A DNA stretch of 23,234 nucleotides from a virus, in the IMG/VR virus record IMGVR_UViG_3300025684_000072, positions 1-23,234 of that record. One strand, written 5' to 3'. The position numbers were made by a program, and so were the translations under genes. Below are positions 289-15,150 of this stretch, one piece after another; the first letter of the stretch is position 1, and every line of letters starts with the position of its first letter. The notes beneath the pieces were generated by a model. It ran no database searches. It was not told the DNA's origin and saw only the letters and a program-made list of their open reading frames with translations.

Positions 289-786
289 CTATAGCACCCA
301 TCCCTTAAATGTTGCGTCTGAATCTGGAAATATGTCGTCATTTGAATTTGAACGATATTCTGGAAACAGATTTTGATTAAAACTCATATAATCCACGAAC
401 CTCCTTGTGTAATAGTCGGCAAACTCTCTCTCTTTGGCGACTAAATAGTCCACCTCTCCTTTATCAACGCTTGTCGAATTTTCGCTCGTGTGTTTGAATA
501 TCCCACCATTCTTTACCTGATAAGCAGCAAACGGTAAATAGTCCACCATAGCGAAGTGAATAAGCATCGGTTGAATATAGGTAGTTACGAGTGTTAAATA
601 ATCACCAGATAACGTGTCAGCTATTATGTCAGCAGAAATCTTGTTGTATAAATCTGTTCCCAAGTAATTCCTAACGTGTATCTCTTGGGCTATCTTTATG
701 AAATGAATGAATTTATCTGTATCCACATTTCCATCCAATATGGAATTGCGAACAAGGTCGGTGCGGGTTATGAATAGTGCTGTCAT
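289..786 (-). CDS. Head-tail connector/head completion protein (DUF6712-like)
   Basis: The product is 165 aa. It starts MTALFITRTDLVRNSILDGN and contains IAQEIHVRNYLGTDLYNKI, a central KNGGIFKHTSENS stretch, a tyrosine/arginine helix (YYTRRFVDYM) and a C-terminal FKGWVL. This pattern matches my memory of the DUF6712 family, which sits just after the portal in Bacteroidota phages and is thought to be a neck adaptor. Its ATG overlaps the portal stop codon by four bases (ATGA), so the two are probably translationally coupled. That position fits an adaptor bound to the portal ring. A gp6-like connector is the likely role, but this was not verified by structure. Confidence 0.65.
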   Translation of the reverse strand: MTALFITRTDLVRNSILDGNVDTDKFIHFIKIAQEIHVRNYLGTDLYNKISADIIADTLSGDYLTLVTTYIQPMLIHFAMVDYLPFAAYQVKNGGIFKHTSENSTSVDKGEVDYLVAKEREFADYYTRRFVDYMSFNQNLFPEYRSNSNDDIFPDSDATFKGWVL

Positions 787-2564
787 TTCTTAGGTAAAAA
801 TCCGTTATTTGGCATATCAACAGGTCGGGTAGCTACTTTCTTGTCGTTTACCTCCGGTTTAAATCCGTCTTTCTTAGCTTGATTCACGCTTACTTCAGCA
901 TTAGGATTGCCAACATCAGGATTAACGCCTTTAGCACGGTAAGTCTTGCGCATCCAGAAATGATGGCAATTACCACCGCCTTTATAAAACCAAACATTGT
1001 AGGTGTCTGCGCCTCTTGGTCCCCATCCTGCGTTAACTACCTTTTCTTCTAAAGCAAGGATATCTTCTTTTCGATATATCTTCTTCGCTGCAACCATTTT
1101 TCGGCAAAATTCTCTGGAATTACCAGAAGTAGTAAGTGGTGCATATTGGTATCTTACTTTAAATCGAACATCATCCACATTCCCGTCTTGTTCCGACTTC
1201 GCCTTTGGTCTTGCTGTACCCGTAGAAGCTAATCCTATCATCATATCTAAAACCTCTTCTTGGTCATAGTCAACAGGTCTTTCATCAACCAATTCCCAGT
1301 TCTCTAAATCTTCATCCTCGCCATCAAGTAAATCAAAAACCCTATCATCAACATCAGGCATTTCTTTAGACATTTGAACTCCGTCATTCGCCTTAACGCT
1401 TGTTCCGTCATTCGACTTTACGCCTGTTTCTTCCTCTCTCGTTTCTTGGTCAGCGACATTCGACAAATCGGTAAACTCTAACGGCTGTAATGTTCTAAAG
1501 TAAAGGTTTAACGAGATATTATTAACCGCTAGTATCTTGTCAAACGCATCTAACAGAAGTTCCTGAAATGGTCTTATAACGGTATTGTCCATTAATATAG
1601 AAGCCGTCTTTAACTCGTCAGCGTTATTCCCCAGACCTGTGTTGTCCTTAATCCCTAAAAGCATAGGAGAAACCACCCTATGACTCATCATTACCTTCTT
1701 AGTGCTTTCGTCTGAAAGGAATTGGTATTGGTTGTGTGCTTCGCTTAATTGGATAGGCTCAATCGTTGCTGCCTGTGCCGCATCATCGTTAAATGCTAAC
1801 ACAAACTTACCCGCATTAGAACTACCACTCCATTTATCTCTTATTCGGTTTTCAAGTAGTTGTCTCTCTTCCTCGTTTGGCACTCCATTATTAAAATTAA
1901 TAAGCATCGAAGGAGCAAGCCCATTCATTATGTTGTTTAAATGGTAGTTAGCAATCTCCTCTTCTAACTCCGCGTATTGAAGCCCTCCTTGGTAGTCCAC
2001 AGGAGCGTAGTAGAAGAAACCTGCACGGTAAGGTTTAACATATAGAATCTCGATAGATTCCTTTGAGAATCCAAAAGCAGGTATTCGCTTGACCTCCTCG
2101 TTTGGTTTTAATTTCTTCCAATCAGATGCATAGTAATATGCTTCTACATCACCATCTTCATTTGCTTTCTCGGCTCTTAATGTTTGTACCGGAAAATGCT
2201 CTGCCTGAACGATTTTAGTTCTATTTTTTGAGTATATAACCTGAATAGCACATTGTCCCATAAGTTTTAAATCGTATGCCAGCTTCCGCACACAATCCTT
2301 ATGGAACATCGTAATCGCTTGGGCATATTGGTCAGGTTTGCGTGATGAATCTGTAGCATCCAAACCACGTCCGTAAATCATCTCTGAAATACCATTAATG
2401 ATAGCGTTGTTCGATGGAGAGCCGTTGTACCTGTCAATCAAATATTGAAAGTAGTCGTTATCGTCACCATAAGCCACCCATTGCTTGTTTCTAACCTCCG
2501 TAATCTTAGGGGAGGAGTAAGAAGCGAGCGCAACTACACTAACTTCGCTTTTTGGTTTTTTCAT
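783..2564 (-). CDS. Phage portal protein with an acidic linker and a C-terminal extra domain
   Basis: The product is 593 aa. Residues 20-370 read as a portal protein: GDDNDYFQYLIDRYNGSP near 33-50, NAIINGISEMIYGRGL (53-68), LAYDLKLMGQCAIQVIY (95-111), and SHRVVSPMLLGIKDNTGLGN (294-313) in the wing/stem area. Residues 370-460 form a low-complexity acidic linker with a short tandem repeat (VKSNDGTS, VKANDGVQ). Residues 463-545 form a compact extra domain with FCRKMVAAKKIYRKEDI, NAGWGPRGADTY and YKGGGNCHHFWMRKTY. The portal makes the dodecameric DNA channel of the head. The tail domain may be a fused head-morphogenesis module (inference). The start overlaps the upstream gene by ATGA. Confidence 0.85.
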   Translation of the reverse strand: MKKPKSEVSVVALASYSSPKITEVRNKQWVAYGDDNDYFQYLIDRYNGSPSNNAIINGISEMIYGRGLDATDSSRKPDQYAQAITMFHKDCVRKLAYDLKLMGQCAIQVIYSKNRTKIVQAEHFPVQTLRAEKANEDGDVEAYYYASDWKKLKPNEEVKRIPAFGFSKESIEILYVKPYRAGFFYYAPVDYQGGLQYAELEEEIANYHLNNIMNGLAPSMLINFNNGVPNEEERQLLENRIRDKWSGSSNAGKFVLAFNDDAAQAATIEPIQLSEAHNQYQFLSDESTKKVMMSHRVVSPMLLGIKDNTGLGNNADELKTASILMDNTVIRPFQELLLDAFDKILAVNNISLNLYFRTLQPLEFTDLSNVADQETREEETGVKSNDGTSVKANDGVQMSKEMPDVDDRVFDLLDGEDEDLENWELVDERPVDYDQEEVLDMMIGLASTGTARPKAKSEQDGNVDDVRFKVRYQYAPLTTSGNSREFCRKMVAAKKIYRKEDILALEEKVVNAGWGPRGADTYNVWFYKGGGNCHHFWMRKTYRAKGVNPDVGNPNAEVSVNQAKKDGFKPEVNDKKVATRPVDMPNNGFLPKK

Positions 2565-2908
2565 ATTATAATAAATTCGTTATCTCGTGAATCTTCGGAA
2601 ACATACACGTCCTTGTTCACAGAGTAATAGTCGTTCAAATCTTGGTCAATGTCTTGGTCAGAGCAAAACACCTTGTCTTTGTATATCACACTTAAGCCAT
2701 CTAATATCGTCAAGTCATAGAACCTACCCTCAAATAAAGAAAACGCATTAGAAAGCGTTAAATAGCCTTCTACGTTAGAAGCGGCAACCGTGTAAGTGCT
2801 AATTGTGTTCTTGGAATCATCCCGTAGCTTCAATGTAACGGAAGTAGGATAGCTTCTGGGAATCACACTCAAGGTCTGTGGGTCGGTGCTTGTAGTTAAA
2901 ACTTTCAT
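2561..2908 (-). CDS. Conserved phage structural-operon protein, unknown function
   Basis: The product is 115 aa, with no signal peptide or TM segment. Readable stretches are VIPRSYPTSVTLKLRDDSKN, FSLFEGRFYDLTILDG, VIYKDKVFCSDQDID and LNDYYSVNKDVYV. The beta-rich pattern and the place directly before the portal (ATGA overlap) suggest a small virion or assembly protein. I recall similar proteins beside portals in Bacteroidota phages, without a known role. It is the first gene after the terminator at about 2967-2996, so it begins a new transcription unit with the portal, connector and fibre genes. Confidence 0.7.
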   Translation of the reverse strand: MKVLTTSTDPQTLSVIPRSYPTSVTLKLRDDSKNTISTYTVAASNVEGYLTLSNAFSLFEGRFYDLTILDGLSVIYKDKVFCSDQDIDQDLNDYYSVNKDVYVSEDSRDNEFIII

Positions 2909-2966
2909 AACTTGATTGCTTAGCTATCTATATAACGATTAAAAAAGAAAGTTTTGTGTTAACTCC

Positions 2967-2996
2967 AAAAAAAAAGAGAGCCTTACGGGACTCTCT
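2967..2996 (-). terminator. Rho-independent terminator
   Basis: Read on the minus strand, AGAGAGTCC-CGTAA-GGCTCTCT folds into a stem (AGAGAG/CTCTCT plus CC/GG with one bulged T). It is followed at once by nine T residues (2967-2975). It ends the two-gene unit of the 67-aa and 31-aa genes and sits about 60 bases before the portal-operon start. Confidence 0.85.
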
Positions 2997-3022
2997 CTTC
3001 AAACTAACTAACCAACCTAACT

Positions 3023-3118
3023 TCAAAGAAAACTTCTTATTATCGAAAATAACACTAAAAATGCTACTATCCAAATGCCTTTACGGCTTATCTTGTCTAT
3101 TACTTCTATTGCTTTCAT
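3023..3118 (-). CDS. Very small single-pass membrane protein (31 aa)
   Basis: The ORF has 31 codons, from ATG at 3118 to TGA at 3023-3025. The protein starts MKAIEVIDKISRKG and continues as IWIVAFLVLFSIIRSFL, a basic amphipathic N-terminus followed by one strong TM helix. It lies 26 bases after the 67-aa gene and ends about 30 bases before a terminator, so it is the last gene of a two-gene unit. The fit between the ORF and the promoter/terminator borders is the main evidence that it is real. The function is unknown; a small holin-like or inner-membrane effector is possible but cannot be shown. Confidence 0.6.
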   Translation of the reverse strand: MKAIEVIDKISRKGIWIVAFLVLFSIIRSFL

Positions 3119-3144
3119 CTGTCTAAAATTTGCTTAATTTTCTG

Positions 3145-3348
3145 TTAAAATTTAACTGTTCGTTTTAAATCCTCTAATCTGTTCACTCTTGGGCTCTCCG
3201 CATTCTTAGTAGCGTCTATCAATTCCATATCTGAAATTACTCGTGTCCAAGTCTTACCTGTTACCGTCGAAGTGTAGCTAACACGGTAGTGTCCGTGTCC
3301 TGCGCTTAGAAATGTGAAATCTGAAAGTTTAGGCTTAATAGTAGGCAT
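3145..3348 (-). CDS. Small hypothetical protein, first gene of a two-gene unit
   Basis: The product is 67 aa, starting MPTIKPKLSDFTFLSAGHGH. It has a beta-rich middle (YRVSYTSTVTGKTWTRVIS) and a basic C-terminus (RLEDLKRTVKF). There are no cysteines, no signal and no TM. I do not recognise a family. It is preceded by a strong Bacteroidota-type promoter (3374-3404) and an A-rich leader, and is followed by the 31-aa membrane protein and a terminator. It is therefore expressed separately from the capsid and portal operons on either side. Confidence 0.7.
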   Translation of the reverse strand: MPTIKPKLSDFTFLSAGHGHYRVSYTSTVTGKTWTRVISDMELIDATKNAESPRVNRLEDLKRTVKF

Positions 3349-3373
3349 CTGTCGTTGTTTTTAAATGTTTCAA

Positions 3374-3404
3374 CAAATATAATAAACAAATGTTAACATC
3401 CAAA
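3374..3404 (-). promoter_or_regulatory. Bacteroidota-type promoter P1 (TTTG-19-TATATTTG)
   Basis: On the minus strand, TTTG (3401-3404) is followed after 19 bases by TATATTTG (3374-3381), a full match to the Bacteroidota -33/-7 consensus TTTG/TAnnTTTG. The A-rich leader with AAAAACAAC leads to the ATG at 3348. The -33 box begins only about ten bases after the T-tract of the previous terminator. TTAACATTTG occurs twice in tandem here, and the copy nearer the start belongs to a 17-base core shared with promoter P2 at 19417-19448. Confidence 0.8.
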
Positions 3405-3413
3405 TGTTAAGCC

Positions 3414-3440
3414 AAAAAAAAGAGAGCCGAAGCTCCCTTT
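3414..3440 (-). terminator. Rho-independent terminator after the tail tube gene
   Basis: On the minus strand, AAAGGGAGC-TTCG-GCTCTC is followed by eight T residues (3414-3421). The stem is closed by a UUCG tetraloop and has one G-T pair. It ends the long unit containing capsid and tail tube genes, and promoter P1 follows directly. Confidence 0.88.
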
Positions 3441-3457
3441 AATTAAGTGTACCTAAA

Positions 3458-3976
3458 TTAAGGTGTTGGATTGATAGCAGAAGATGAATCATCCGTTGGT
3501 TCGTCACAGAAGAACGGAGGAGCGGTTTCTTGAGCAACAAGCGAAAGCGTAAAGCCGCTTAAATCACCCATAGCAGCACCGGTAGCAATAGAGCCGCCAG
3601 TAACCTCACATCCGTTATCTTTGCCAACCAAGAAGAAATTCCCGTTGTAATCCTCTACCACCACCTGTGGACGACCGTGAGCAAGTAATTTAATTTGCTC
3701 CTGTGTCGCTACGTCCAAGAATGTTAAAGTAAGATTTAAGGTAGTCTCGTAGAAAGTCGTGCCATTCTCTCTGGAAGAGTTGATAGCGGTTTCTAACGAC
3801 GAATTACCCTTAATCTCATATTTATAGAAGTCCTCGGCATCGTTTAGTGTGATGCTTCCAGACGATGGAGAAAGTGCAGCAGTAACAGCCGAGTAAGGGG
3901 CAAAGTAAACACTTTTCAAACCACCTACTGAACTCTTACACGGCAACACCCTTCCATTTGAAACTGAACAAGCCAT
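3458..3976 (-). CDS. Major tail tube protein (probable)
   Basis: The product is 172 aa, starting MACSVSNGRVLPCKSSVGGL. It contains YFAPYSAVTAALSPSSGSIT, TTFYETTLNLTLTFLDV, HGRPQVVVEDYNGNFFLVG, KDNGCEVTGGSIATGAAMGD and LSGFTLSLVAQETAPPFF. This beta-rich layout and length match what I recall of tail tube subunits in Bacteroidota siphoviruses, where the motif RPQVxVEDYNGNFFLVGxDNG is characteristic. It forms stacked hexamers around the tape measure. It lies directly after the capsid gene, with a GC-rich hairpin between them, and before a strong terminator. The N-terminal GRVLPCK and the CxV later are cysteine sites of unknown use. The family call comes from memory, not a search. Confidence 0.7.
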   Translation of the reverse strand: MACSVSNGRVLPCKSSVGGLKSVYFAPYSAVTAALSPSSGSITLNDAEDFYKYEIKGNSSLETAINSSRENGTTFYETTLNLTLTFLDVATQEQIKLLAHGRPQVVVEDYNGNFFLVGKDNGCEVTGGSIATGAAMGDLSGFTLSLVAQETAPPFFCDEPTDDSSSAINPTP

Positions 3977-4002
3977 ATGTTGAGATTTAGAAGTTAAATA
4001 TA

Positions 4003-4024
4003 GGGGAGAGCGTTAACCCTCCCC
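4003..4024 (-). other. GC-rich hairpin between capsid and tail tube genes
   Basis: On the minus strand, GGGGAGGG-TTAACG-CTCTCCCC forms a strong stem (one G-T pair) 7 bases after the capsid stop codon. There is no clean T-tract (TATATTTA follows), so it is a weak terminator, an attenuator or an mRNA-stabilising element rather than a full stop. It may set the ratio of capsid to tail tube transcripts (inference). Confidence 0.55.
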
Positions 4025-4030
4025 GTTTAA

Positions 4031-4978
4031 TTATGCAAGAGTAAGCAAGGTACAATCGCTACCAATACCGTATTGGATTCCGGAAGTAAATCGCATTACT
4101 ACACGTACATTCTGCGAACCGTCTAAATCTGCCATATCAAGAACCTTAACCTCGTTGTGGTCGCTTAACAAGCCAGTACCGAAGTAAAGGTTGGATTTTT
4201 GGGCAGCCACGATGTGGTCAGATGGCATACCGGGAGCAAGTTGCATTTTGATACCCTCGTAAGAAAGAGCATTCCCGTTGTTATACCATTGTGTCCCAGC
4301 AGCGTTAACACCCGCAGCACCAAGACCAGAAGCACCAAATCCACCCAATGCACGGATGTAGGCTTGGTAAGCAGCTTGAGGTACGTAGATAGTCAAATCC
4401 TCTTTACCGAATAGAGCGGTAGGAATAGTGTCAACCACACTTCCTAGAAGGTCAATTACATTTGTAGAAGAGAACGCAGTCTCGGTAAGGTTAGGTGCAT
4501 CATTTACAGTAGCATCAGCAGCCATAAGCACAGTAAACCCATCGAACTCACCAGCGGTAGCGTTTACACCACCCCAGATGTTGTTCTCGGTCTTCTCAGC
4601 TACCATTCCTGCAACGTGAGCGATGATGAAATCGCTGAAAGAAGGAGGCAGGTTGTCAAATGCAGAGTAACCCATTTGAACAGCTTCCCAGTCAGAGCGG
4701 AAATCTTTCTTACAAAACTCAAGGTTCACTTGGAACTCTTCAGGTTGAAGGATGCGCTCGGTTAGAGTGATAGTTCCGGTATCGGTAAAATCACAAGAAC
4801 CATCTTTAATTACGTTAGCATCAGCAGCAACCTTCTTGATTACTTCTTTGTACTTAACGTTTGGTTTGATTTCAATCGCACCATCTTCCAAGGTCTTCCC
4901 AGACAGAAGAGCGGCAGCGATATACTTACCGGCAAAATCGCCAGCGTAAGAAGTGGTAATACTAGTTGTAGTAGCCAT
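4031..4978 (-). CDS. Major capsid protein (HK97-fold, probable)
   Basis: The product is 315 aa, starting MATTTSITTSYAGDFAGKYI. Readable parts are a long N-terminal arm, LQPEEFQVNLEFCKKDFRSD (a typical P-loop/spine region), FSDFIIAHVAGMVAEKTENN, TIYVPQAAYQAYIRALGGF, and a C-terminal domain with MQLAPGMPSDHIVAAQKSNL, VKVLDMADLDGSQNVRVVMR and GIQYGIGSDCTLLTLA. The length, the position directly after a scaffold gene and the C-terminal pattern support the shell protein. An A/T-rich 14-base gap separates it from the scaffold stop. No cleaved delta domain is evident inside the ORF, consistent with a separate scaffold. Confidence 0.85.
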   Translation of the reverse strand: MATTTSITTSYAGDFAGKYIAAALLSGKTLEDGAIEIKPNVKYKEVIKKVAADANVIKDGSCDFTDTGTITLTERILQPEEFQVNLEFCKKDFRSDWEAVQMGYSAFDNLPPSFSDFIIAHVAGMVAEKTENNIWGGVNATAGEFDGFTVLMAADATVNDAPNLTETAFSSTNVIDLLGSVVDTIPTALFGKEDLTIYVPQAAYQAYIRALGGFGASGLGAAGVNAAGTQWYNNGNALSYEGIKMQLAPGMPSDHIVAAQKSNLYFGTGLLSDHNEVKVLDMADLDGSQNVRVVMRFTSGIQYGIGSDCTLLTLA

Positions 4979-4992
4979 AATTTAAAATTGAT

Positions 4993-5604
4993 TTATAGAT
5001 TAGAAATTTTTTGTAATACTTTATCTCTTGTAGATAAATTTCGGTTAGGAGAAAGCTTGAACATTTGTCTTTGTGCGTTGCTTTCAGGTGAATGCTTTAA
5101 AGGAGCAGCAGCAGGTTCTTGAGAAAGTTGAGCCTCTACTTGAGCAGCAGCTGTTTCAGCAAGTGCTGTTTCAGCAAGTGCTTCTTTTTCGATTGTTGCG
5201 GAAAGTTCAGCTTGAACTTCTTCAGTAGGCTCTTTAGCTTTCATCTCTACCATCTTCTCAATCATCGCTTTGATTTCTTCGATAGCAGCAGCAAATTCCT
5301 CTTTAGTTACGTAAAGCGTTTCTTCAGCCATTTCAGGAGCGGCTTCTTCTTCAGGCATTTCTTCCACCTCTTTGATTTCTGAAATGATACCTTCTTCTAC
5401 CACTACCAAGACTTTGCCATCCTCAAGAGAGTATTCGCCCACAGGAAGTGCAACCTTCTGGTCTTCGGTAACTATGAACACCTCATAGTCTTTCTCAAAT
5501 GATTCAGCCTCTAACACCGTACCATTCTCGAGTTTCATTTGCGCCAACTTCACTTCCATCCCTAGGAGTGTTCGTATAGCGCTAATTGCATCAGTTGATT
5601 TCAT
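4993..5604 (-). CDS. Capsid scaffold protein
   Basis: The product is 203 aa and strongly acidic in the middle. The order is an N-terminal segment with MEVKLAQMKLENGTVLEA, FIVTEDQKVALPVGEYSLED and VLVVVEEGIISEIKE, then a Glu/Ala/Met-rich helical region (about 80-165) with the short tandem repeat ALAETALAETAA, and a basic C-terminus RDKVLQKISNL. This composition and its place between protease and capsid genes are typical of an internal scaffold removed during head maturation. In some phages the basic C-terminus binds the capsid (general knowledge). A short tract EVKLAxM is also found in the protease (residues 37-43). Confidence 0.8.
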   Translation of the reverse strand: MKSTDAISAIRTLLGMEVKLAQMKLENGTVLEAESFEKDYEVFIVTEDQKVALPVGEYSLEDGKVLVVVEEGIISEIKEVEEMPEEEAAPEMAEETLYVTKEEFAAAIEEIKAMIEKMVEMKAKEPTEEVQAELSATIEKEALAETALAETAAAQVEAQLSQEPAAAPLKHSPESNAQRQMFKLSPNRNLSTRDKVLQKISNL

Positions 5605-5614
5605 ATAATTAAAT

Positions 5615-5761
5615 TTAAGAATTACGATATATACTTCCTATGCCTTGCGCCCATAACGAGCCATCGCAGCATTTCCTTGAATAGGTGTTTGTGTCCTTGC
5701 ACAAGCACGCTCTTGAACTATTCTTTGGGCTTGTGTAGCTTGGTGTTTTGTCTTTATCCAT
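5615..5761 (-). CDS. Small cysteine-rich conserved phage protein (48 aa)
   Basis: The ATG at 5761 overlaps the stop of the upstream fibre gene by eight bases (ATGGATAA), a coupling mode also seen at 6370-6377. The product carries ACLCKDTNTYSRKCCDGSLW and AQGIG, with four cysteines (19, 21, 31, 32). I recall the same signature (CLCxDxNTYSxKCCDGSLxAQGIG) in structural operons of Bacteroidota phages. That is why this frame is preferred over two longer overlapping readings of the same DNA. The role is unknown; the cysteines could make disulfides or bind metal. Its location between fibre and scaffold genes suggests a virion-associated or assembly role. Confidence 0.7.
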   Translation of the reverse strand: MDKDKTPSYTSPKNSSRACLCKDTNTYSRKCCDGSLWAQGIGSIYRNS

Positions 5762-6377
5762 AGTTCTGAACCTTTTGAATGAAAAAGATAATATCCCACA
5801 CTGAAGCCGTACCTCCAATAGCGGTTATCTTCCATTGACTACCAACACTTGTAAAGTTAGCATCAGCATAGTATTGAAACATTCCGTGGTAGTCGTGTGC
5901 CACATCATTACCCTTCGGAAATGTGATAGTGTCTCTGATTCTGTCGTATGGTGTGCCGTTTGCGCCCTCTAAGACGAGTTCGAGATACGTTTGGTTAGCG
6001 TTAGCAGAAGACATCTTAAATACTATGGTCATTAAATAGGTGTCATTTTCAAAATCAGCTAATACCTTACCATCTTCGTAGTAATCAATTCCCGTATGCG
6101 ACCTATAAACAGTTCCTGCATCATTTGGTAATATCACCTCAACGCCATCTGTTAATGATAGCTTACTTGCAGATGTGTATTGCCCATCATCATATCTTGC
6201 CCATCCTAAACCTGAATCTGCACCTCCTTGTGGGTAAATCTTACGCCATTCTCCATTCCAAACGGTATATACACCAGATGATGTGGTAACATACGCCCCA
6301 TCTTCTATTTGGTAAGCGTTTCTTACATCGTCCGTGTCAACGTCTACTTGAACCTTGTATGAAGTATTTTTAACCAT
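5754..6377 (-). CDS. Putative head fibre/decoration protein with jelly-roll-like C-terminus
   Basis: The product is 207 aa. A short N-terminal part (MVKNTSYKVQVDVDTDDVRN, then GAYVTTSSGVYTVWNGEWRK) is followed from about residue 57 by a beta-rich domain: WARYDDGQYTSASKLSLTDG, VEVILPNDAGTVYRS, TYLMTIVFKMSSANANQTYL, HDYHGMFQYYAD and SQWKITAIGGTASVWDIIFF. Such a layout, with Trp/Tyr-rich strands and an Ile/Phe-rich last strand, is common in trimeric phage fibre or C1q/TNF-like jelly-roll domains (inference from pattern). It starts eight bases inside the end of the protease gene and so is part of the head operon. A tail or capsid decoration fibre is most likely; the host ligand is unknown. Confidence 0.55.
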   Translation of the reverse strand: MVKNTSYKVQVDVDTDDVRNAYQIEDGAYVTTSSGVYTVWNGEWRKIYPQGGADSGLGWARYDDGQYTSASKLSLTDGVEVILPNDAGTVYRSHTGIDYYEDGKVLADFENDTYLMTIVFKMSSANANQTYLELVLEGANGTPYDRIRDTITFPKGNDVAHDYHGMFQYYADANFTSVGSQWKITAIGGTASVWDIIFFIQKVQNYG

Positions 6378-6939
6378 TTAAGATTTCTATTATCTTGCTC
6401 AAAAGTTCGTCGTCTTCATTCTTCTTTTCCGCCTCTAGTTTGTCGGCAAAATAACCCTCAATAGAAAATCCTTTTACCTTACCAGTCTTAACGTAATCAT
6501 TCCAGACTTCGTCGTTGTTTACTTTGACCGCACCCATCCAAGTGCCTACTGGTAACTTCATTCCGTAGAATGCTGATTTGTCCTTCTCTTGGTCTTCAAC
6601 TATCCAAGATTCAACTAACGTCAAACCGTTTAAGGAATATTGATGCTCAAGTGTAGAGTTGTTTTGATTACCACGAATAAGGTACATTTCAGAAGCTTTA
6701 CGAACGGTGTCTTTAGAAAAATAGATATACCATTCATCGTCAGCGTTCTTTCGGTAAATAGGTTTATTTGGGATTAAGAGCGCGCCTAACAAGATACGTT
6801 TCTCTTTATCCATTTCAGCAAGTTTAACTTCCTCCGATTTTAAAGCAATGAAATCTTCTTCGATAGCTGGGTTCTCCACAACGGAAATAGCCTCGATACC
6901 AATTTGCTCTTCATCCAATACGAGTTCTACTATACGCAT
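6370..6939 (-). CDS. Prohead protease, XkdF-like
   Basis: The product is 189 aa. It begins MRIVELVLDEEQIGIEAISV and contains LLGALLIPNKPIYRKNADDE, WYIYFSKDTVRKASE, TLEHQYSLNGLTLVESWIVE, FYGMKLPVGTWMGAVKVNND and VKGFSIEGYFADKLE. This matches the PBSX XkdF-type putative serine protease family. By analogy with other herpes-assemblin-like proteases, H99 and S111 (in VESWIV) are candidate catalytic residues. It would cut the scaffold that follows two genes later and free the head interior for DNA. About 43 bases separate it from the tape measure stop, with no convincing promoter or terminator between them. Confidence 0.8.
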   Translation of the reverse strand: MRIVELVLDEEQIGIEAISVVENPAIEEDFIALKSEEVKLAEMDKEKRILLGALLIPNKPIYRKNADDEWYIYFSKDTVRKASEMYLIRGNQNNSTLEHQYSLNGLTLVESWIVEDQEKDKSAFYGMKLPVGTWMGAVKVNNDEVWNDYVKTGKVKGFSIEGYFADKLEAEKKNEDDELLSKIIEILNG

Positions 6940-12603: not shown

Positions 12604-13064
12604 AGGCTTATATCATTTTCAATAACGACATCGAATGTCGCTACCCATCCCGCTATATTGTTTTCAAACCTATCCAAGAACGGCTCACAAGTTACTGCAC
12701 CCTCAAGCTGATACTTGTCCCTAAACAGGTCGCTCATACGTAACTTCTGCAACATCCGATTTAATACGGCTAACTGCGTGTTAAGTACATCGTGTAGATT
12801 ATCATTACCAACAAACAAATCGGTTACTTCTTCCTTGCTCGTGTCAACGATATCCATAGCCAACACACTTAGGTTGAATGTTAAAATGCGTTCGTCTTGT
12901 GTCGCAGAATTAACTATTAAATGCGACAAAGGGAAGATGGTTTGCTTCGATAGGTCAATATCAGTGATGTCCCCGTGTGTTACGGTGTTCACATTCACAT
13001 CGTCAAGCAATGTGTTCTTAATCGTTTCTGTTACCTTGTAGAAACCCTGTATTCCTTTACTCAT
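12594..13064 (-). CDS. Neck/tail completion protein, tentative
   Basis: The product is 156 aa. It starts MSKGIQGFYKVTETIKNTLL and contains LTFNLSVLAMDIVDTSKEEV, HDVLNTQLAVLNRMLQKL and a conserved-looking end EPFLDRFENNIAGWVATFDV-VIENDI. I recall this as a widespread Bacteroidota phage family in the head-tail junction cluster, probably a tail terminator-type protein. Its ATG overlaps, by the usual ATGA, the TGA of the -1 frame of the upstream gene rather than of its 0 frame. This is a key piece of evidence for the frameshift there. Confidence 0.65.
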   Translation of the reverse strand: MSKGIQGFYKVTETIKNTLLDDVNVNTVTHGDITDIDLSKQTIFPLSHLIVNSATQDERILTFNLSVLAMDIVDTSKEEVTDLFVGNDNLHDVLNTQLAVLNRMLQKLRMSDLFRDKYQLEGAVTCEPFLDRFENNIAGWVATFDVVIENDISLCS

Positions 13065-13791
13065 TTCTTTCTAATTTGTTGAACCTCCAAATCGTTTTTC
13101 TCCTTCATAAACGCCAACATCATTAAACACTTGTGGACGTTTAATTCAGTGATATGTTCAAGTCTTGCAACATCGCCGAGAGCGAGTGCGTATATTGATT
13201 GATACCAACCCCACTTGCTTCCGAATTGAGATAACGCACTATAAGGCTCTCCTTGTCCGCCTGTGAAGAGTTCAGGATAGCTTTCGATAAGTCCGTCCCT
13301 AAACGATAAAAAAAAACAATAGAACCCATTACGCAGTCCATAGTAATATCCTTCATATGCAAGCTGTCGTTAGGCTTGTAATCTTCTATCGCATACCGCT
13401 CTCCATATTTAGTCGTTACACGACGGTACAAGACATTCATCGCTAAATGCATATTCTCCCAATTTCCTAAATATGTGTCAAGGTCTATATATTCCCCTAA
13501 TGAAATGTCCTCTAACTTAGGTATGAATCCATATTCATTGCCTCCTATCTTTGTGCGCTGTATTAGCTTTTGTTTGTCGCTGAATAACTCATTTAACATC
13601 GAAACGATTTCGTTCGTGTCACTTAACCTCATATTCAAAACGTACTCTGAAGGTACATTGCAAAATATCTCTATCATTTTAATTTGAAGAAACCGCTCAT
13701 CGGTGTTATTCTCCTGAATCTTTAGAAACTTCTGATATTGTCCAAGTGTTACCTCTGACATCGTTTCTGGAATGTTAATCTCTACCTTCAT
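13061..13791 (-). CDS. Frameshifted product (243 aa) made through a T9 slip; tail-assembly-chaperone-like candidate
   Basis: Reading residues 1-161 in the 0 frame and slipping back one base in the T9 run (13308-13316) gives 82 more codons to TGA at 13061-13063. The new part reads LSFRDGLIESYPELFTGGQG, EPYSALSQFGSKWGWYQSIY, ALALGDVARLEHITELNVHK, CLMMLAFMKEKNDLEVQQIR and KK. It is far more protein-like than the 0-frame tail, with an FGxKWGWYxSIYxLAxGD motif and a final charged helix. Its stop overlaps the next ATG by ATGA, like most junctions here. The 0-frame bases GTT TTT TTT contain the canonical -1 heptamer T-TTT-TTT. The product may be made by ribosomal frameshifting or by transcriptional slippage; alternatively the assembly may have one wrong T. 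Confidence 0.75.
13141..13791 (-). CDS. 0-frame product (216 aa) of the T9-slippage gene
   Basis: The unshifted reading gives 216 aa: MKVEINIPETMSEVTLGQYQ, KFLKIQENNTDERFLQIKMI, a middle with FIPKLEDISLGEYIDLDTYL and WENMHLAMNVLYRRVTTKYG, then DITMDCVMGSIVFF at the slip site. The first 161 residues are shared with the longer product. The remaining 55 residues (YRLGTDLSKAILNSSQ onward) look less conserved in character. In phage lambda and many others, the short and long frameshift products of a tail chaperone gene are both needed (known for G/GT). This gene is not beside the tape measure, so the chaperone role is only a hypothesis. An isolated terminator lies upstream at 13834-13854. Confidence 0.65.
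   Translation of the reverse strand: MKVEINIPETMSEVTLGQYQKFLKIQENNTDERFLQIKMIEIFCNVPSEYVLNMRLSDTNEIVSMLNELFSDKQKLIQRTKIGGNEYGFIPKLEDISLGEYIDLDTYLGNWENMHLAMNVLYRRVTTKYGERYAIEDYKPNDSLHMKDITMDCVMGSIVFFYRLGTDLSKAILNSSQADKESLIVRYLNSEASGVGINQYTHSLSAMLQDLNISLN
13308..13316 (-). other. T9 slippery homopolymer
   Basis: Nine T residues on the minus strand occur inside codons GTT-TTT-TTT-TAT (residues 159-162). The run satisfies the T-TTT-TTT heptamer for -1 ribosomal slipping and is also long enough for polymerase slippage. It is the only long homopolymer I noticed inside a coding region here; other long T-runs belong to terminators. Confidence 0.75.
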
Positions 13792-13833: not shown

Positions 13834-13854
13834 AAAAAAACCTCCCGAAGGAGG
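13834..13854 (-). terminator. Rho-independent terminator after the zinc-ribbon gene
   Basis: On the minus strand, CCTCC-TTCG-GGAGG is followed by seven T residues (13834-13840). This is a perfect five-pair stem with a UUCG tetraloop. It ends the unit of TerS, TerL and the 38-aa gene and isolates the downstream tail operon. Confidence 0.9.
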
Positions 13855-13865
13855 CTGTGTTTAAA

Positions 13866-13982
13866 TTAACGCATTGATGCTTCAAAGCAAACCCCCGAGC
13901 AGTAGCCTTCGTGGTCAATAGGCTCTCCGCATTCATAACATTCGTGTTCTTTCTCTTCTGAATAATAAAGTAAATGATTCAT
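13866..13982 (-). CDS. Zinc-ribbon mini-protein (38 aa)
   Basis: The ORF has 38 codons, from ATG at 13982 to TAA at 13866-13868. The protein is acidic and carries HECYECGEPIDHEGYCSGVC, a CxxC...CxxxC set of four cysteines plus histidines that looks like a treble-clef or zinc-ribbon knuckle. Similar tiny CxxCG(E/D)xI proteins occur in Bacteroidota phages (recalled). It stands alone between the large terminase and the tail operon, preceded by a promoter-like sequence and an A-rich leader and followed within about 30 bases by a strong terminator. A regulator or nuclease-inhibitor role is possible but unproven. Confidence 0.7.
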   Translation of the reverse strand: MNHLLYYSEEKEHECYECGEPIDHEGYCSGVCFEASMR

Positions 13983-13996
13983 CGTGTTGTTTTTAT

Positions 13997-14027
13997 TAAA
14001 GATACTAACTTACCACGTATTTTCCAA
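13997..14027 (-). promoter_or_regulatory. Weak Bacteroidota-type promoter P3 before the zinc-ribbon gene
   Basis: On the minus strand, TTGG (14024-14027), 19 bases, then TATCTTTA (13997-14004) approximates TTTG/TAnnTTTG with one mismatch in each box. It lies in the last codons of the terminase gene. Downstream, AATAAAAACAACACG leads to the ATG and resembles the leaders of P1, P2 and P4. Confidence 0.45.
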
Positions 14028-15150
14028 GGTTAGGTTTGGATAGCATTGAATATGTGGCATAACGTACAGAATCGCAGATGTGATTATTAGTGTCAATAGG
14101 CACGTTAGTAATGATTCCCGTCCTATCTTCTTTCCATTTGTAATTCCTAAATTCCATTATTGCGTTAGTGGAGTCTTTAAGCACGTGAAGCTTGTGTCGT
14201 TTTAGCATATCGATTCCCGCTTTTATATCCTTCTCGCTTTTACGTATGTTCCAACCAAACCTCCTTAACTCCTCATTCAATCTAGGCTCTGCCGTGTCAG
14301 CATAAATAGCACCTTGGATGTAGTTTTCTTTTAGAAAATTATGAATGTCTATGGTAGTCATACCTGTGCGATATAACAGTTCTTTGATGTATAGGTTGTG
14401 TTCGTGTTTGTAAACTGCCACTAATGCCGTTGGGTCGTTTGTAAATCCGTAATCCATACCATAAGATAGCAAAGAAGCGTTCTCCGGTATTTTATCAATT
14501 TCCGTGTACGTGAATATAGTAGCGCGAGACATCGCTCGTTCTCCAAGACCATATATCTGCCAGTACTGCTCGTCCGTATCCTTTAACCTTTCAATCTCGG
14601 ATATAAGTTCAGCAGATAGGAATGGATTGTCTTTGTACGTCGTTTTAAAAAAAGCACAGTCCTCTCGGCTTATTACCTTCTCATACAACCAATGATATTC
14701 GTCTGATGGGTTGAAGTCGCCAATGATACGTCCTTCCGTTCTAAATAGAAGCTGCTGCCAGTCTTCCCATAGTAGTTCGTTTACCTCGTTAGCGAATAGA
14801 AGGTTTCGTTTACGTCCTCTTACCTTTTGTGGCTGGTCTAAGGAAATGAACTCCACAAGGTTTTCAAATAGCTGGTATTCGTTATTTGTCTTGTTGTGGT
14901 CTTCCTCTCGGTACAGGTTGTTATTTCTTAATATATCTAAAAAATCCCGCATAACGGTAGCACGCAATGCTGGGAATGTCTTTCTACAAATGGTTACTAT
15001 TTGGTTTTTGTTTTCAGCACAATATTGGAATATAATCCACATCAGGATGTTATACGTCTTACCTGAACGTGTACCACCCTGTTCTATTATTATTTTTTTA
15101 TCGCTTCTTACAAGGTGTTTAAATACCTTATTGGTCTGAAGGTGTATCAA
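14005..15150 (-). CDS. terL: Terminase large subunit
   Basis: The product is 381 aa. The ATPase domain has Walker A GGTRSGKT (25-32), and Walker B LLFANE (117-122) with its catalytic-type glutamate. The nuclease domain has GMDYGFTNDPTALV (D233), AIYADTAEPR (D285) and NHICDSVRYA (D360), the three acidic sites of the RNase H-like fold. It is short but complete. The enzyme packages DNA into the prohead and cuts concatemers. It overlaps the small subunit gene by 23 bases, which suggests coupled translation. Its 3' end contains the candidate promoter for the 38-aa gene. Confidence 0.95.
   Translation of the reverse strand: MIHLQTNKVFKHLVRSDKKIIIEQGGTRSGKTYNILMWIIFQYCAENKNQIVTICRKTFPALRATVMRDFLDILRNNNLYREEDHNKTNNEYQLFENLVEFISLDQPQKVRGRKRNLLFANEVNELLWEDWQQLLFRTEGRIIGDFNPSDEYHWLYEKVISREDCAFFKTTYKDNPFLSAELISEIERLKDTDEQYWQIYGLGERAMSRATIFTYTEIDKIPENASLLSYGMDYGFTNDPTALVAVYKHEHNLYIKELLYRTGMTTIDIHNFLKENYIQGAIYADTAEPRLNEELRRFGWNIRKSEKDIKAGIDMLKRHKLHVLKDSTNAIMEFRNYKWKEDRTGIITNVPIDTNNHICDSVRYATYSMLSKPNLGKYVVS

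Follow-up and report, generated by a model that had tools for sequence, protein, structure and literature searches.

The window analysed here is the entire 23,234-base sequence of a virus record, from a virus of marine Bacteroidota-type bacteria. The gene of interest lies on the minus strand, between the gene for the large terminase subunit and a gene of 156 codons, and is open in two reading frames that part at a run of nine Ts (Table 1). Around this run (13316..13308, minus strand), the codons of the 0 frame are ATT GTT TTT TTT TAT. When the run is re-read one base back, the frame continues as LSFRDGLIESYPELFTGG...FGSKWGWYQSIYALALGD...EKNDLEVQQIRKK for 82 codons to a TGA at 13063..13061, which overlaps the ATG of the next gene (13064) as ATGA; the +1 frame at the run closes after two codons. 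The numbers given for the locus in the initial annotation (the end of the ORF at 13141, the T9, the 82-codon -1 frame, the ATGA overlap and the T-TTT-TTT heptamer) were all confirmed on the sequence. Since the start of the 156-aa gene is overlapped by the stop of the -1 frame rather than by that of the 0 frame, coupling to this gene could be open only to translation in the shifted frame.

Table 1. Coordinates of the split gene, its recoding site and neighbouring features in the window
Feature	Position	Strand	Remarks
0-frame ORF, 216 aa	13141..13791	-	Match to phrog_32199 (E 4.9e-17); N-terminal domain (residues 1-161) followed by a 55-aa 0-frame tail
T9, putative slippage run	13308..13316	-	At least nine Ts in 321/321 readable loci
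In-phase heptamer T_TTT_TTT	13309-13315	-	Within T9
-1-frame tail, 82 codons and TGA	13061..13309	-	Reached only after a slip; stop overlaps the next ATG
Dual-coded overlap	13141..13308	-	0 and -1 frames both open and both conserved
Next gene, 156 aa	12594..13064	-	phrog_30964; conserved neighbour; start overlaps the stop of the -1 tail
Large terminase subunit	14005..15150	-	Terminase_3 (E 1.5e-20) and synteny; conserved upstream neighbour
Tape-measure candidate, 597 aa	6983..8776	-	Named from length, Ala-rich helical sequence and position; without family match
Intrinsic terminator between terminase and chaperone-like genes	13839..13856	-	z -4.0
TCGTTATATA box beside the chaperone-like start codon	13795..13804	-	Recurs, including variants, in many relatives

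An AlphaFold model of the 216-aa 0-frame product, presumed to be the abundant form of the chaperone, had a mean pLDDT of 78.5, with residues 1-170 mostly at 80-92 and the 0-frame tail below 50. The -1 tail was predicted with moderate confidence to be helical, and carries the motif KWGWYxSIYxLAxGD.

Genes of 156, 174, 374 and 683 aa stand between the split gene and the tape-measure candidate. The order TerS-TerL-chaperone-like gene-156-174-374-683-tape measure is kept in about 40 contigs, in only some of which the tape-measure gene is reached or is similar enough to be detected. The gene is as unusually placed as had been remarked from the single sequence: it follows the terminase gene and lies in the tail block upstream of the tape measure with four genes intervening, and not directly beside the tape measure, adjacency being the usual but not a defining position. 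The portal, capsid-like and candidate tube genes (289-6939) are found downstream of the tape-measure candidate, an unusual order of terminase, tail and head.

The TCGTTATATA box may be a (late) promoter or an initiation element, and an exact copy is also found before the gene at 2908 (2929-2938). Between the terminase gene and the terminator that follows it lies a 38-aa ORF (13866-13982, minus strand), shorter than the usual gene-calling length, with zinc-ribbon-like cysteine pairs (CYEC, CSGVC). The two other long A/T runs of the window (2967-2975 and 3414-3421) are the T tails of minus-strand hairpins and are thus terminators, not coding sequence.

Conservation of the split gene

In a first scan, 584 relatives were found among viral contigs and 80 of them kept; later scans raised the number of readable loci to 321. 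These loci are not independent, since some contigs contributed repeatedly, and their effective number is smaller. Clustering of the first 162 usable loci gave 51 representatives. Runs of 9, 10 or 12 Ts occupy the junction, at which 60 distinct site sequences were found among the 321 readable loci. The -1 tail is 81-91 codons long in loci where the contig includes its end, the exception (L015) having an early stop. In the kept relatives with a readable site, the T-run occupies the same codon position, the 0 frame extends 55-62 codons past it and then stops, and the -1 frame yields the same tail; over the 321 loci, the overlap open in both frames ranges from 25 codons, in the cultured Nonlabens phage P12024L, to 79. 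The three nearest relatives (L002-L004; 92-93% identity, separate assemblies) share T9, the split and the tail with the window. Within the ORFs of 38 related contigs, sense-strand runs of at least nine Ts occur once per contig, always in the chaperone-like gene.

The -1 stop is linked to the next gene by ATGA in 28/51 representatives and by TAATG in 10/51, together 38/51. In 8/51 (L012, L040, L053, L072, L082, L124, L126 and L139) the next called gene begins 112-283 nt past the -1 stop, and either the ATGA linkage has been lost or a small gene has been inserted.

The family extends to a cultured phage and to bacterial genomes. Nonlabens phage P12024L (Inhavirus) has the same T9 (CTT TTT TTT TAT), -1 tail and gene order, but differs in that its 0-frame tail has only 25 codons and in that the gene is annotated as two hypothetical proteins, gp40 and gp41. 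Among cultured phages, searches by sequence with members of the family recovered only P12024L/S. The gene also occurs in bacterial chromosomes and bins, Flagellimonas onchidii among them; in a survey of 397 genomes around F. onchidii it was present in 3, with T9 in 3/3. In PHROGs, the gene is cut by reading frame into two families of unknown function, phrog_32199 and phrog_38404.

Because homopolymers are error-prone, one wrong T in the assembly of a continuous gene had been offered as the alternative to a slip. Such an error, or decay of the gene, can now be excluded for all practical purposes: the same split recurs across many samples, in 321 loci, as well as in cultured P12024L, homologues keep the T-run (at least nine Ts throughout), its register and the -1 tail, and both frames are under selection (see below). 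Homopolymer runs are also classic contingency sites, at which DNA-level differences in run length between genomes could toggle the long form. Lengths of 9, 10 and 12 do exist, yet the frames are fused in 0/321 loci, no locus is out of register, and close relatives all retain the split, which makes phase variation highly improbable.

More distant homologues were reached by a structure search, which led to a protein of Flavobacterium phage 6H and from it to relatives in the Duneviridae (laban6-1, Ingeline), in Leef_1 and in a Microcystis phage, several of which are continuous ORFs of 259-301 aa. The proteins laban61_gp017, Ingeline1_5, Leef1_2 and QXN68085 (Microcystis phage) are remotely homologous to the family over the N-domain and part of the -1 tail, and differ from it in being encoded in one continuous frame, without the split. 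When the profile of the fused family was compared with those of the distant homologues by hhalign (probability 94.6, E 7e-8), the alignment crossed the junction into the -1 tail up to WGWYQSIYALALGD, whereas that of the 0-frame family with the same homologues stopped at the junction. The -1 tail alone gave no convincing alignment to the continuous homologues (probability 2), and only the fused profile aligns. Because the fused profile runs through the junction and the 0-frame profile stops there, the -1 tail is the C-terminus common to the distant relatives.

The recurrence of one split in 321 loci, together with continuous distant homologues that match the -1 tail, supports a programmed -1 slip at T9 that would be conserved throughout the family. 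The proposal of such a slip in a tail-chaperone-like gene was thereby upheld, and comparison with homologues bore it out in two respects, near relatives sharing the split and T-run and distant ones being continuous and matching the -1 tail, while the 0-frame tail was unmatched in the distant ones. In phage 6H (L178, 2501-3400) the remote homologue is broken: its 0 frame ends in FFYSTR and a stop, and the homology resumes a few codons later in the -1 frame. Other F. psychrophilum phages have near-identical copies, and the broken gene represents either decay or a further, distinct recoding site.

Selection on the two C-termini

The 0 frame stays open past the run for about 57 codons on average, compared with about 10 expected from synonymous recoding of the -1 tails. 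Furthermore, in pairs at 75-90% protein identity, change at four-fold sites of the -1 frame was 0.14 in the overlap versus 0.32 after it, and 0.41 at four-fold sites of the 0-frame part before the overlap. Pairs above 90% identity behaved similarly (silent variation of 0.063 in the overlap versus 0.12-0.15 outside), and at wider divergence, where few comparable sites remain in the -1-only region, the contrast with that region weakens. First positions of the -1 frame, which are third positions of the 0 frame, are relaxed. Because the 0 frame is kept open while silent change in the -1 frame is reduced, both C-termini are under selection and the overlap is dual coding. The description of the -1 frame as the real C-terminus therefore holds insofar as this tail is shared with distant homologues, but the 0-frame tail is also selected.

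The -1 frame might instead be a second gene with its own internal start, as the annotation of P12024L gp41 from an internal ATG would have it. This is very unlikely, since the -1 frame is conserved from the T-run onward (FFLxFR...), and so before an internal start is reached, and since distant homologues fuse both parts.

The length of the dual-coded overlap is unusual. At 25-79 codons it exceeds the stretches of 5 codons in lambda and 7 in P2, and in published collections overlaps average 26-36 nt (PMC10885494).

Identity of the protein

The N-terminal part is extended by a conserved C-terminal domain in the -1 frame, an arrangement that resembles lambda gpG/gpGT, where a common short form and a long form share a single start, the long form gains its C-terminal part through the -1 shift, and the gene lies upstream of the tape measure. 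The marine gene differs in that lambda slips on GGGAAAG with 5 further 0-frame codons versus about 55 here, and in that the lambda gene adjoins the major tail and tape-measure genes; sequence similarity is undetectable. P2 gpE/gpE+E' likewise shifts -1 on a T-rich site (GGT TTT TTG), and gpE matches the PHROGs 'tail protein' family phrog_166 (E 4e-7) over a stretch also matched by part of the marine family, 11/51 members of which match it weakly (best E 2.3e-4). The P2 system differs in its T6 run, its 7 codons past the slip, its size and its position beside the tape-measure gene T. Pfam, including curated tail-chaperone models, returned nothing above noise, and neither sequence nor fold searches of the PDB gave a significant match.

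From its architecture and context, and with weak support from homology, the best reading of the protein is a tail chaperone. We regard it as probable, with good confidence, that the product is a phage tail-assembly chaperone and that a programmed -1 slip at T9 yields two forms of it from a single start. It is unlikely that the recoding is real and the protein some other morphogenesis factor, such as a connector or neck factor. The position of the gene after the terminase and not after a tail tube, the lack of a curated chaperone family match and the empty fold search would suit such a factor, but the G/GT-like architecture, the tail-side neighbours, the link to phrog_166 in common with P2 gpE and the position of the continuous remote homologue Ingeline_5, three genes before an annotated tape measure, all point to a chaperone.

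By analogy with lambda G/GT, most products would read through T9 to give the 216-aa protein with its 55-aa 0-frame tail, and a fraction would shift -1 at T9 to give a protein of 243 aa whose helical tail has 82 aa. Through their common N-domain the two forms would coat the tape-measure protein, and the long form, the rarer of the two, would bridge to the tube by recruiting the tail-tube subunit with its -1 tail. Slip frequency would fix the ratio of the two forms, and the slip itself could come from RNA polymerase adding one U in the nine or more Ts, from the ribosome, or from both.

The proposed slip and its significance

The junction carries the marks of two kinds of slippage. It is a homopolymer of at least about nine residues that need not keep one codon phase, and T-runs longer than eight are in the range reported for transcriptional slippage (PMC3711429). 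It also contains, in the sites examined, the in-phase X_XXY_YYZ heptamer (T_TTT_TTT) of -1 ribosomal frameshifting. A stimulator, which is common but not obligatory for the latter, was not found: fold z-scores for a downstream pseudoknot or hairpin were about 0, the RNAalifold consensus of 25 sequences was empty, and a Shine-Dalgarno-like element upstream was absent in 302/321 loci. An invariant T9 with neither an RNA structure nor a Shine-Dalgarno-like stimulator is unusual. Thermus dnaX (A9) and Shigella mxiE (T-run) similarly have a homopolymer of at least nine at a frame junction without an obvious stimulator (PMC3711429), although these are not phage tail genes and slippage at the T9 described here is predicted from sequence.

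In the other ORFs of the 38 contigs (237 kb), T8 was observed 3 times versus 16.3 expected and runs of at least nine Ts 0 times versus 4.7 expected, in any phase, while in-phase T7 was not avoided (26 observed versus 30.1 expected). Avoidance of runs of eight or more but not of the in-phase heptamer modestly favours polymerase over ribosomal slippage, although such avoidance can have other causes, for example replication errors. Before the shift, Phe is encoded by TTT in 51/51 representatives and never by TTC (p about 1e-5 from 80% TTT usage); UUU may itself be more slippery on the ribosome than UUC. As evidence for the polymerase, the TTT-only codon and the avoidance of long runs are indirect. 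The run also stays at nine when its flanks change (ACT TTT TTT TTG; GGT TTT TTT TTG; TTA TTT TTT TTT C), and a few lineages hold the nine-T run in other phases.

The same two-product chaperone could be made by a purely ribosomal slip, with tRNA-Phe slipping -1 in tandem on T_TTT_TTT, the mechanism of other tail chaperones. The heptamer is in phase at the sites examined, P2 gpE uses the related site GGT TTT TTG, and the Leu/Val/Ile and Tyr/Trp codons required in the two frames account in part for the extra flanking Ts; furthermore, slippage in the well-studied tail chaperone of lambda is ribosomal (PMC5009743). Against a purely ribosomal slip, the heptamer never ends in C though TTC makes up 20% of Phe codons, the heptamer alone is not avoided elsewhere as longer runs are, the search for a stimulator was negative, and the nine-T length is held despite changes in the flanks. 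This explanation remains a serious one, judged somewhat below an even chance.

RNA polymerase, adding one U in at least nine Ts, is considered the likelier machine, at slightly better than even, with the ribosome on T_TTT_TTT given a substantial but smaller share; both may contribute. The ribosomal-type slippage first suggested for the locus retains its in-phase heptamer, but the site behaves as a homopolymer of at least nine Ts and RNA polymerase is also a candidate. The fuller reading, in which polymerase slippage on an invariant T9 sets the chaperone forms, both C-termini function and the same roughly 170 bases are used in two frames, is tentative and stands just under an even chance. The open-access literature yielded no description of tail chaperones made by transcriptional slippage, and nothing linking tail chaperone, frameshift and Flavobacterium.

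Control of tail length by a slip-made ratio of chaperones is a textbook case of ribosomal recoding. The gene described here belongs to a large marine family and is split in the manner of G/GT, which the annotation of the only cultured member found does not record. Its recognition corrects annotation, in which gene callers either omit the -1 tail or make a separate gene of it, as in P12024L and PHROGs. The family combines the G/GT architecture with a stretch of unusual length that is maintained in both frames and a site seemingly tuned for RNA polymerase. If it is the polymerase that slips, a central ratio in phage assembly would be set at transcription.
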